Shown here: positions 29,407 to 33,123 of the stretch, piece by piece | Position numbering within the stretch: position 1 is the stretch's first letter | Layout of the letters: the number at the start of each line of letters is the position of its first letter | DNA from: Rhodocyclaceae bacterium | GTDB lineage: Bacteria; Pseudomonadota; Gammaproteobacteria; Burkholderiales; Rhodocyclaceae | Length of the DNA stretch: 36,801 bases | Assembly (NCBI GenBank): GCA_020445665.1 | Contig: JAGRGD010000001.1 | Span: forward strand, 1 to 36,801 | Reading direction: 5' to 3' | The notes under the pieces: generated by a model | Database searches by the model: none | What the model was told of the DNA's origin: nothing | What the model saw: only the letters and a program-made list of their open reading frames with translations | Position numbers and translations under genes: made by a program

Positions 29407-31116
29407 ATGCGCGCTTCGCAATTTTTCATCTCAACCCTCAAGGAAGCTCCTTCGGACGCGGAGGTCACCAGCCAGAAGCTGATGCTGCGGGCGGGCTTCA
29501 TCCGCAAGGTGGCGGCCGGCATCTATACCTGGATGCCCATGGGCCTGCGTGCACTGCGGAAAGTAGAAGGGATTGTTCGCGATGAGATGAATCGCGCTGG
29601 CGCCATTGAGGTTCTGATGCCTGCGGTACAGCCTGCCGAACTCTGGCAGGAGTCGGGCCGCTGGGAGTTCTATGGTCCGGAGTTGCTGCGCATCAAGGAC
29701 CGACATGATCGCGACTTCGTGATCGGCCCCACCCACGAAGAGGTCATCAGCGACGTGGCCCGCCGGGAGTTGCGCAGCTATCGGCAACTGCCCCGCCACT
29801 TCTACCAGATCCAGACCAAGTTCCGGGACGAGATCCGCCCGCGCTTCGGTGTGATGCGAGGGCGCGAGTTCACGATGAAGGATGGTTACTCGTTCCATGC
29901 GGGTTTCGAAGACCTGCAGCGCGAGTACCGCAACATGTACGACACGTACACGCGCATCTTCAGCCGCCTCGGGCTGGAATTCCGGGCGGTGGCTGCCGAC
30001 ACCGGTTCGATCGGCGGCACCGGTTCCCATGAGTTTCACGTCATTGCCGAGACGGGAGAGGACGACATCGCGTACTGCCCGGACTCGGATTACGCGGCCA
30101 ACGTCGAGTTGGCCGAGGCGCTGCTGCCTGCCGGCGATCGCAGACCTCCGACCAAGGCGCTGGAGAAGGTGCATACCCCGGGCGTGCGCACGATCGACGA
30201 ACTGGCGACCTTTCTGAAGATTCCCGTGACGACCACCGTCAAGGCCGTTGTGGTGGAAGGGGAAAATGGCGAGCCCGTGCTGATGCTGCTGCGCGGTGAC
30301 CACGAGTTGAACGAGATCAAGGCGCAGAAGCTTGAGGGCATTCGCGACCCCCTCACTTTTGCGGCCCCCGAGGCGATCACCCGTGCCTTCGGCGCCGAGC
30401 CGGGCTCCCTGGGCCCGGTCGGATTCCAGGGGCGGGTGATCATGGATCGCAGCGTCTCGGCGATGGCGGATTTCGTCATCGGCGCCAACGAGACCGACTT
30501 CCACATGACCGGCGCCAACATCGGGCGGGATTTCCCCGAGCCCGAGGTGCAGGATCTGCGCAACGTCGTGGCCGGCGACCCGTCGCCGGACGGCAAGGGG
30601 GCGTTGCAGATCTGTCGCGGCATCGAGGTGGGGCACATCTTTCAGTTGCGCACCAAGTATTCGGAGGCCCTCGGCTGCAAGTTTCTGGATGAGAACGGCC
30701 GCGAGCAGGTCATGGAGATGGGCTGCTACGGGATCGGCGTGACCCGGATTCTCGGCGCGGCGATCGAGCAGAACTGGGATGAACGCGGCATCATCTGGCC
30801 GACCGCCATCGCTCCGTTCGAAGTGGTGATCTGCCCGGTGGGAATGGCTAAATCCGACGAGGTGCGTGAGCGGGCTGAGGCGATCTATGAGGCGCTCGTT
30901 GCCAGCGGTGTGGATACGATTCTCGATGATCGCGGTGAGCGGCCGGGCGTGATGTTCGCAGACTGGGAACTGATCGGCGTACCCCACCGCATTACGGTCG
31001 GTGACCGGGGCCTCAAGGAGGGTGTCGTCGAATACGCGCGTCGTTCCGGTGGAGAGATGGAGCGCCTGCCGGTGGCCGAGGTCGCGACACGTGTCGCTGG
31101 GCATGTTCGGGGCTGA
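29407..31116 (+). CDS. proS: Prolyl-tRNA synthetase (bacterial type)
   Basis: The 569-residue enzyme charges tRNA-Pro. It starts [40 protein letters not shown], the standard form, with class II motif 2 ([32 protein letters not shown]), the YbaK-like editing insertion (about 225-405, including [32 protein letters not shown]), motif 3 ([18 protein letters not shown]) and the anticodon-binding domain at the end. Length matches the E. coli enzyme (572). No strong ribosome-binding site precedes the ATG at 29407. The stop overlaps the start region of the lytic transglycosylase gene. Confidence 0.97.
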
Positions 31117-31756: not shown

Positions 31757-32176
31757 TCACTCCGCCTCGACGATCTCCCAGTCGTGGGTGATCTCTGCTG
31801 TCTTGGCCAGCATGATCGAGGCTGAGCAGTACTTCTCGGCGGAAAGGTGGATGGCGCGCTCGACCGATTCCGGCTTCAGCCCCTTGCCTGTAACCGTGTA
31901 GTGAAAGCGGATCCTGGTGAAGACTTTCGGCTCCGTCTCCGCACGCTCAGCGGTCAGACGTACCGAGCAGTCGCGAACATCCTGCCTGGATCGCTTGAGA
32001 ATCAGGACGACATCGAAGGCCGTGCATCCTCCCGCGCCGGCCAGCATCATCTCCATGGGTCGAGGTGCGAGGTTGCGTCCGCCGGCGTCAGGGGCGCCAT
32101 CCATGGCAATGAGGTGGCCGCTGCCGGTCTCGGCGACGAAGCTCATGCCGTCCATCCATTTGATTGTGCACTCCAA
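31757..32176 (-). CDS. OsmC-family protein, YhfA type
   Basis: The 139-residue product aligns from end to end with E. coli YhfA: ECTIKWMDGMSFVAETGSGH, RPMEMMLAGAGGCTAFDVVLILKRSRQDV, VFTRIRFHYTVTGKGL and LSAEKYCSASIMLAKTAEITHDWEI. OsmC/Ohr-type proteins use two cysteines to reduce organic peroxides; the pair here is C51 and C117. The start is a TTG at 32176 with GGAGA nine bases upstream and the position agrees with YhfA; the in-frame ATG nearest upstream (32398) would add 74 residues with no family match. The physiological substrate of YhfA is unknown. Confidence 0.9.
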   Translation of the reverse strand: MECTIKWMDGMSFVAETGSGHLIAMDGAPDAGGRNLAPRPMEMMLAGAGGCTAFDVVLILKRSRQDVRDCSVRLTAERAETEPKVFTRIRFHYTVTGKGLKPESVERAIHLSAEKYCSASIMLAKTAEITHDWEIVEAE

Positions 32177-32450
32177 GGCCGAATCTCCGGGGGCTGTCAG
32201 TGAATTCGGATTGTCCGCGAAATTGGCGGGCGGCGCACCAATGACGCCCCCCGCGCGAGGCACCCCAGGGCGGTAATGGAGTCGCCGGCGTTCAAATTCA
32301 TGTTGCTGACCACAAGGGTTCTGCGCTTCTGCGTCAGGTTGATGCCTGGCGCGGTGAGAGCCTGCCGATGCACAGGAGCCCACAGCCGCAGCGCGCATAA
32401 GCAGGCTTTATGGCAGGATAGAAAACATTGTGGTGCGGCGCACAAAAAAC
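32177..32450. other. Non-coding leader upstream of the OsmC gene
   Basis: No protein-coding gene is supported in this stretch; short open frames on both strands have no family match and lack ribosome-binding sites. It must contain the OsmC promoter (minus strand), but I cannot place it with confidence. A bulged inverted repeat, CATAAGC...GCTTTATG, lies at 32396-32412. Confidence 0.5.
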
Positions 32451-32452
32451 GC

Positions 32453-32481
32453 TTGCGGGTGCCTGTTGGCACGGGGATAAT
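32453..32481 (+). promoter_or_regulatory. Sigma-70 promoter of a candidate small RNA
   Basis: TTGCGG (32453-32458) and GATAAT (32476-32481) are separated by exactly 17 bases. Transcription would start near 32488-32489. No gene follows before the intrinsic terminator at 32550-32580, so the promoter appears to serve a short non-coding RNA. Confidence 0.6.
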
Positions 32482-32488
32482 CGGTCCC

Positions 32489-32580
32489 AGTCGGATCGAA
32501 CTCGGATCCAGTCGATGTCTCCTCCACCCTCCTCCTTTGGTGTGGATTTAACGCAGCTCCGCAAGAGCTGCGTTTTTTTT
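32489..32580 (+). ncRNA. Candidate small regulatory RNA (~92 nt) with exposed CUCCUCC loop
   Basis: A sigma-70 promoter (32453-32481) and an intrinsic terminator (32550-32580) bracket about 92 bases with no open reading frame of note. The predicted RNA folds into a small 5' hairpin (GGATC/GATCC, about 32504-32509 pairing with about 32493-32498), a second hairpin in which UCCACC pairs with GGUGUGGA around a loop CUCCUCCUUU (about 32522-32547), and the terminator hairpin. The second loop, and the CUCCUCC just before it, are complementary to Shine-Dalgarno sequences. C-rich, loop-exposed anti-SD motifs are a known device of trans-acting sRNAs, for example the UCCC-motif RNAs of Staphylococcus. 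Targets and Hfq dependence are inference. A long U-tail at the end would suit Hfq binding. Confidence 0.55.
32550..32580 (+). terminator. Intrinsic terminator of the candidate sRNA
   Basis: AACGCAGCTC (32550-32559) pairs perfectly with GAGCTGCGTT (32565-32574) around CGCAA, and the right arm runs into eight consecutive T's ending at 32580. It lies upstream of the rplM promoter and insulates rplM-rpsI. Confidence 0.92.
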
Positions 32581-32611
32581 GGCTGCCACCCGTCCGAAGC
32601 GTCCGAGAGGA

Positions 32612-32641
32612 TTGACAGGGGGCACCTCACTGGTCTATTCT
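32612..32641 (+). promoter_or_regulatory. Promoter of rplM-rpsI
   Basis: A consensus TTGACA (32612-32617) and TATTCT (32636-32641) are separated by 18 bases, followed by a GC-rich discriminator (CCGCGG). The start point near 32648 would give a leader of about 47 nt before rplM, long enough for the autogenous control known for L13 in other bacteria. Confidence 0.75.
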
Positions 32642-32694: not shown

Positions 32695-33123
32695 ATGAAA
32701 ACGTTTTCTGCCAAGCCGCACGAGGTCCAGCGAGACTGGTTCGTCGTGGACGCGACTGACAAGGTCCTCGGCCGGCTCGCAGCCGAAGTGGCGCGCCGCC
32801 TGCGCGGCAAGCACAAGGCCGAGTACACGCCGCACGTGGACACGGGTGACTACATTGTGGTCGTCAATGTGGAGAAGCTGCGCGTGACCGGCGCCAAGGC
32901 CACCGACAAGAAGTATTACCGTCACACCGGATACCCCGGTGGTATCTACGAGACGAGCTTCGAGAAGATGCAGCAGCGCTTCCCGGCGCGCGTCCTCGAA
33001 AAGGCGGTCAAGGGCATGCTGCCGAAGGGCCCGCTGGGCTACGCCATGCTCAAGAAAATGAAGTGCTACGCTGGCGGAGAGCATCCGCATACTGCGCAGC
33101 AACCCAAAGCGCTCGAGATCTAA
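32695..33123 (+). CDS. rplM: 50S ribosomal protein L13
   Basis: L13 binds 23S rRNA early in 50S assembly. The 142-residue product begins [29 protein letters not shown] and contains [40 protein letters not shown], and [31 protein letters not shown], which is full length for the bacterial family. The ATG at 32695 follows GAGGAA. It is the first gene of the conserved rplM-rpsI operon, with a strong promoter directly upstream and the candidate sRNA gene before that. Confidence 0.98.

Follow-up and report, generated by a model that had tools for sequence, protein, structure and literature searches.

The stretch of DNA analysed here, 36,801 nt of a Rhodocyclaceae genome (the window), carries between an osmC-family gene and rplM a small RNA that belongs to the known family RF02278 and does not found a new RNA family. 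In our assessment it is probably an anti-Shine-Dalgarno (anti-SD) RNA that lowers the translation of many mRNAs and is repressed by PhaR until polyhydroxybutyrate (PHB) granules sequester this regulator. The RNA matches its family in score and predicted structure, is conserved in related genomes, and is preceded in the window by a PhaR-type box (Table 1); across genomes, presence of the box upstream of RF02278 loci follows presence of PhaR. Statements on published systems refer to the portions of the cited papers that were available.

Table 1 Features of the small RNA locus and its neighbours in the window
Feature	Position	Strand	Basis or remark
osmC-family gene, divergent neighbour	31757..32209	-	NCBIfam NF008009 166 bits, cut-off 138, on frame 31760-32398; start uncertain
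PhaR-type box GTGGTGCGGCGCACAAA	32430..32446	+	16/17 positions of R. eutropha consensus YTKNTGCRNYGCANMAR
-35 element TTGCGG	32454-32459	+	read from sequence; 17 nt ahead of -10; weak match, unlisted by scanner
-10 element GATAAT	32477-32482	+	read from sequence
Predicted primary transcript, ~91 nt	32489..32579	+	start inferred from -10 box; three stem-loops, z -3.65
Leader hairpin SL1 (GGATC...GATCC)	32493..32509	+	folding
RF02278 core, possible processed form of ~64 nt	32516..32581	+	cmscan 61.8 bits, gathering 50
Anti-SD site 1 UCUCCUCC	32518..32525	+	fold: first five bases unpaired, last three form SL2 base
Hairpin SL2, loop = anti-SD site 2 (UCCUCCUUU)	32523..32546	+	folding
Intrinsic terminator hairpin and T-run	32550..32580	+	terminator scan
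Promoter-like site TTGACA-18-TATTCT ahead of rplM	32612-32641	+	scanner
rplM (L13), downstream neighbour	32695..33123	+	TIGR01066 203 bits

Identity and structure of the RNA

The core matches RF02278 ("Betaproteobacteria toxic small RNA"; cmscan, Rfam) over the full length of the model (1-64) and above its gathering score, and has the layout of that family, namely two hairpins, of which the second is a terminator, and the motifs UCUCCUCC and CCUCCU. The original prediction of an unannotated small RNA unit was borne out, although the family was already known. The NmsRb model (RF02877) also aligned, at 32487-32579, but its 32.1 bits fall short of the gathering score of 52, and it exceeded its cut-off in none of the 61 genomes of the relatives set; strict NmsR membership was rejected on these scores. 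The three stem-loops of NmsRb are nevertheless found in the predicted fold, with anti-SD motifs in the linker and the SL2 loop. Three RF02278 copies occur in the source genome, the other two (C213:50764-50828 and C183:3394-3458) both lying close to contig ends.

The ncS27-type double-hairpin RNAs of Burkholderia belong to the same family. Kimelman 2012 is reportedly the source of the toxicity finding for RF02278 RNAs, and Sass 2019 is said to be a study on ncS27. Both works are known to us through citing papers and the available part of a review (PMC10987360). Burkholderia cenocepacia expresses four copies, ncS03, ncS05, ncS27 and ncS62 (PMC5688073), Herbaspirillum has four family members (PMC7011215), and relatives have been detected on Northern blots (PMC4603805, PMC11722255).

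Folding calculations agree with the structure originally drawn by eye, which placed the motif in the loop of a central hairpin: the 64-nt core folds with z = -6.09 (equalled by 0/200 shuffles) and the 91-nt transcript less extremely (2/200). The predicted SL2 loop is UCCUCCUUU, the C preceding it being paired. CUCCUCC occurs in the RNA at 32519 and 32529, and the CTCCTCC doublet is unique on either strand of the 36.8 kb (0.035 expected under a first-order random model). The terminator scan likewise recovered the proposed terminator, a 10-pair stem with a loop of 5 (32550-32574) and eight T's (32573-32580). Both elements of the proposed sigma-70 promoter are present, but its description as good was not upheld; by our own count it matches consensus at 3/6 positions of the -35 and 5/6 of the -10, making it moderate, and the sigma-70 scan misses it because the -35 is weak. 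In relatives inspected by eye, the -10 reads GATAAT (L036-L039, L049, L066, L070) or CATAAT (L040); the leader hairpin GGATCG/CGATCC becomes GGGTCG/CGACCC in the congeners L036, L037 and L040, and the 5' leader varies in length. The stretch was described as free of open reading frames, which is literally untrue, as frames cross it on both strands, but holds in that no plausible gene is among them.

Conservation and genomic context

In a covariance search of relatives, as suggested with the original prediction, 48/61 genomes in the relatives set had RF02278 matches (above the cut-off in 34), as did 151/240 genomes sampled from the order (above it in 94), compared with 0/14 control genomes. Site 1 (UCUCCUCC) is kept in 89 of 96 further homologous loci and CCUCC or CUCCU stands at site 2 in 90 of them (exceptions include G066, G107 and G225), counts that are partly selected, as the family search model favours the core. 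The loci in these three genomes (L218, L212 and L213, respectively; family f31) retain site 1, but their SL2 loop (CCACCCAAACAT...) no longer carries the anti-SD motif. Across 35 aligned sequences, i.e. the window and 34 of the 96 loci, both-side changes occur in 7 of the 13 consensus pairs of the core, all seven in the terminator stem, which on this alignment covaries. The SL2 pairs say little because they are mostly invariant, and since several divergent cores were omitted from the alignment, its invariant columns overstate how well the motifs are conserved.

At least 119 records with an identical 35-nt core were found in a scan of the collection. Among the 80 such loci in the matches listed, some of which are truncated, rplM lies downstream in at least 63, osmC lies upstream in at least 66, and the PhaR-type box is present in 77 of the 78 that have 150 nt upstream; since an identical core makes them close kin, these loci are not independent. 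Both RNA and box are present in records named Accumulibacter, Zoogloea, Thauera and Azonexus. Tandem RF02278 pairs with ~330-390 bp between the copies, an arrangement also known from NmsR in Neisseria, occur at L097 and L099 (G004:C22 and G001:C114), and the copy-rich genomes include G043 with nine hits and G011 with eight, all of the latter below the cut-off.

An RF02278 copy lies beside osmC and/or rplM in 35/61 genomes of the relatives set (three of the 35 below the cut-off). In 32/61 the copy precedes rplM in the same orientation, and in 31 of these a divergent osmC flanks it on the opposite side; in three more genomes it neighbours osmC while rplM is located elsewhere or on a different contig. 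A direct osmC-rplM neighbourhood (at most 1221 bp apart) without a detected copy between the two genes is seen in 15 genomes, in 10 of which the gap is only 119-263 bp. Elsewhere in the window, a transglycosylase SLT frame (PF01464; 31001-31744) overlaps the 3' end of proS (29407-31116) as listed, its true start being uncertain.

A PhaR-type box at the promoter

The box ends seven bases ahead of the -35, an operator-near-promoter arrangement like that of the PhaR (PhbF) regulon, and its binding by PhaR is predicted from sequence. It is the only site in the window with at most one mismatch to YTKNTGCRNYGCANMAR (0.22 expected), although such a site occurs in 21/100 shuffled windows, and a YGCRNYGCR box stands at the same place in 5/5 congeners. 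The R. eutropha PhaR sites correspond to YTKNTGCRNYGCANMAR and are found at phaP1 immediately ahead of the -35 and around its start (PMC12849132); the footprint of H. seropedicae PhbF (PhaR) covers a region with TG[N]TGC[N]3GCAA (PMC3206438), and the S. meliloti PhaR motif includes YGCRNYGCR (PMC12542648). PhaR represses phaP1 until granules take it up (PMC12849132, PMC11332829) and is also capable of activation, as at phaP3 (PMC12849132).

The source genome encodes PhaR (PF07879 and PF05233, at C276) and two phasins over the cut-off, whose promoters share the box, A-run and -35 layout (TTTGTGCGGTGCACAAAAAAAGTG-TTGACA and TTTGTGCAATGCGCAAAAAAACGC-TTGACA versus GTGGTGCGGCGCACAAAAAACGC-TTGCGG in the window). 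Both paralogues of the RNA have YTGTTGCRTTGCAGCAA over the -35, a full consensus match by eye with C or T as first base, and their boxes are two of only three exact TGTTGCNNTGCANCA sites in the genome; in a comparison of copies, those unlinked to osmC/rplM have TTGTTGCRYTGCAGCA over the -35.

With at most one mismatch, TGTTGC...GCA occurs 35 times forward and 29 times reverse in the genome (4 and 3 for the backwards pattern), and the surroundings of seven of the loci returned were inspected. The third exact site precedes a cytochrome c gene (PF00034; box L117 1501-1515 (-), C271), and one-mismatch sites precede a cytochrome oxidase subunit II gene (PF00116, PF02790; box L125 1501-1515 (-), C51) and a sugar-nucleotidyltransferase with hexapeptide repeats. 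These three rule out that every such site marks a PHB gene. As judged from the boxes at the cytochrome genes, the same regulator may possibly be linked to respiration.

Co-occurrence of the box with PhaR

The hypothesis of a PhaR box was drawn from the relatives set, in which boxes were present at 29/31 linked and 13/15 unlinked loci with PhaR and 0/3 without (52 over-cut-off hits, comprising 46 with PhaR, three without, and three, all from G043, lacking sequence; one of the 46, on C183, has just 57 nt upstream). The test was fixed beforehand and then applied to new genomes. Genomes with PhaR were represented by one best hit each (69 loci), leaving out secondary hits and relatives-set genomes, and those without PhaR by all hits among the matches listed (27 loci in 21 genomes), leaving out weaker matches.

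YGCRNYGCR was found within 150 nt upstream of 63/69 loci in genomes with PhaR and of 1/27 loci (1/21 genomes) without it (Fisher 9e-14, kinship ignored). At the PhaR loci, control frequencies were 21/69 in the next 150 nt upstream, 3/69 for the reversed motif and 11.6% in shuffles. A second motif named beforehand, TGC-N3-GCA, was present at 54/69 versus 3/27 loci and shows the largest gain over the control region among 832 triplet palindromes. Allowing up to two mismatches, the 17-base consensus occurred at 53/69 versus 1/27 loci, and with at most one mismatch at only 25/69 versus 0/27. With families as units, the box was present in 18/18 with PhaR versus 0/8 without, f43 being in both groups.

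No box was recorded at 6 of the 69 loci with PhaR. G008 and G035 encode PhaR and have near-boxes only (by eye), scored as no box, and the box of L276 lies at -174, beyond the 150-nt limit. G117, which provides one of the 18 families, encodes PhaR but has a promoter of the PhaR-lacking type, and its counted box at -142 is probably due to chance. In G017 no PhaR was found in the assembly (96% complete), yet a near-box, scored as no box, stands at the same place. An ATT-N4-AAT palindrome is found in 81% of loci without PhaR, and many of L138-L164, all from such genomes, share an AT-rich palindrome (~TATTAGATAATTCTAATA) that overlaps the -10 and replaces the PhaR-type box. Because the loci without PhaR share this other promoter palindrome, loss of the box and loss of PhaR may have been a single event.

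Proposed regulation and targets

From these features we infer transcription of the RNA, PhaR binding, the direction of control and the targets. A trans-acting double-hairpin RNA would be made from its own sigma-70 promoter and end at the intrinsic terminator, and its two CUCCUCC motifs would, as in studied relatives, cover the Shine-Dalgarno sequences of many mRNAs and reduce their translation. From a site immediately ahead of the -35, PhaR probably represses transcription of the RNA; growing PHB granules would titrate PhaR and so allow the RNA to be made, and the released RNAs would block translation of carbon-uptake and catabolic mRNAs, throttling carbon use. As PHB granule growth titrates PhaR (PMC11332829, PMC12849132), a PhaR-repressed anti-SD RNA would be expected at carbon surplus. 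We also favour, a little more cautiously, a wider reading in which PhaR couples the RF02278 family to the carbon store across PHB-storing Betaproteobacteria and lineages without PhaR have re-wired the RNA to another operator, with targets that possibly include phaR.

Glucose medium raised ncS03, ncS05 and ncS27 of B. cenocepacia 8.0-, 6.9- and 4.3-fold, and starvation raised them 2.6-, 3.9- and 3.9-fold (PMC5688073). By analogy, the glucose induction would fit control by PhaR, whereas the rise in starvation is unexplained by carbon surplus alone. Over-expression of ncS27 slows growth and its silencing raises the growth rate, and 55-80% of its predicted interactions lie near starts, over ribosome-binding sites (PMC5688073). 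The suggestion that the window RNA could pair with many ribosome-binding sites was the right idea, given the Rfam family and the precedent of Neisseria, where, with either anti-SD motif of N. meningitidis NmsRA mutated, every target except GltA escaped repression (PMC5362039).

Target prediction covered 10 start regions, with starts assumed, mononucleotide shuffles and values uncorrected for 10 tests. The phaR start region paired best (-28.1 kcal/mol, equalled by 2.0% of shuffled RNAs), followed by that of the C216 phasin (-17.6 kcal/mol, 4.7%), while the other eight, rplM among them, did not stand out against shuffles. The phaR region (L137 ~1470-1500), whose pairing is with the RNA core, has a GAGGAG Shine-Dalgarno sequence; if the modelled pairing occurs, a negative feedback loop with phaR is possible. 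Overall, the original observation is confirmed and its interpretation partly supported.

Alternative explanations

The position of the RNA, which lies co-directionally upstream of rplM with 114 nt between its end and the gene, and which has a counterpart in the same arrangement in about half of the relatives set (32/61), would suit a cis-acting element of rplM, either a leader attenuator or a ribosomal feedback site, and the original prediction gave weight to the ribosomal-protein neighbour. That meaning found no support. A terminator precedes rplM, a separate promoter-like site follows it (Table 1), two RF02278 copies lie elsewhere in the genome, the rplM start region pairs worse with the RNA than with shuffled RNA, and the short osmC-rplM gaps of 10 of the 15 adjoining genomes have no RNA detected between the genes. 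We rejected cis regulation on these grounds and regard it as highly improbable; synteny, terminator and promoter scans, pairing and the other copies revealed no link of the RNA to rplM function. Even less credible is the reading, suggested by the Rfam name, that the RNA acts as the toxin in a toxin-antitoxin pair. The family owes that name to toxicity in E. coli (PMC4603805, PMC5688073), and introduction of NmsRB into E. coli proved impossible (PMC5362039), but the sigma-70 scan showed no antisense promoter beside the RNA, its chromosomal site is kept in 35/61 genomes, and the effect of ncS27 silencing on growth (PMC5688073) also speaks against it.

An anti-SD RNA of family RF02278 could instead answer to a different transcription factor that recognises this TGC-N3-GCA palindrome, with PhaR as a lineage-correlated bystander. 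The palindrome is short and, standing also before the cytochrome c and cytochrome oxidase subunit II genes, makes a respiratory regulator conceivable, and the near-box of G017 is kept without PhaR. However, the box tracks PhaR over families, the window promoter layout copies that of the phasin promoters, and in S. meliloti PhaR itself has been shown by EMSA to bind the sdhC promoter, a putative site being present at gltA as well (PMC12542648). We consider such a factor unlikely and prefer PhaR as the repressor of the window RNA.

Comparison with known systems and implications

The B. cenocepacia RNAs ncS03, ncS05, ncS27 and ncS62 share with the window RNA a pair of hairpins and two CU-rich stretches of anti-SD type. 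The 92-nt ncS27 is processable to a short form (PMC5688073), against ~91 nt and a guessed short form here, and it lies between BCAL3348a and BCAL3349, BCAL3348 being a ribosomal protein gene, much as the window RNA lies near rplM. Those RNAs come from another genus and are expressed, whereas transcription of the window RNA is predicted. In Bordetella pertussis, RNase E processes the long form of S17 to S17S of ~67 nt, and S17 represses by covering the ribosome-binding site through Sites 1 and 2, which are conserved in Betaproteobacteria including Aromatoleum (PMC11722255). S17 differs in its neighbourhood (BP3151/coq7) and its higher level in the Bvg+ mode; the available text claims homology and not RF02278 membership. 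Neisseria NmsR and NgncR_162-163 (RF02877) have three stem-loops with anti-SD motifs in the SL1-SL2 linker and the SL2 loop, as here, but the NmsRs form a tandem pair and the window RNA falls short of their model. Sinorhizobium meliloti MmgR is repressed by PhaR (AniA) via a promoter motif (PMC12542648) and, by analogy, provides an earlier example of PhaR controlling a small RNA, although it belongs to another RNA family (alpha-r8) and acts on phasin expression.

No statement of PhaR control of RF02278 RNAs was found in the literature searched, whose scope excluded the main ncS27 study and most subscription papers, and PhaR is unmentioned in the searched text of papers naming RF02278. A common upstream motif of the Burkholderia toxic small RNAs has been reported without a regulator (PMC5688073), and the available portions of the literature examined name no transcription factor for them. 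A PhaR operator, if true, would provide a testable answer as to the regulator of these RNAs and would fit their glucose induction. It would also join the sensing of storage granules to broad control of translation, and would be relevant to wastewater and bioplastic organisms.
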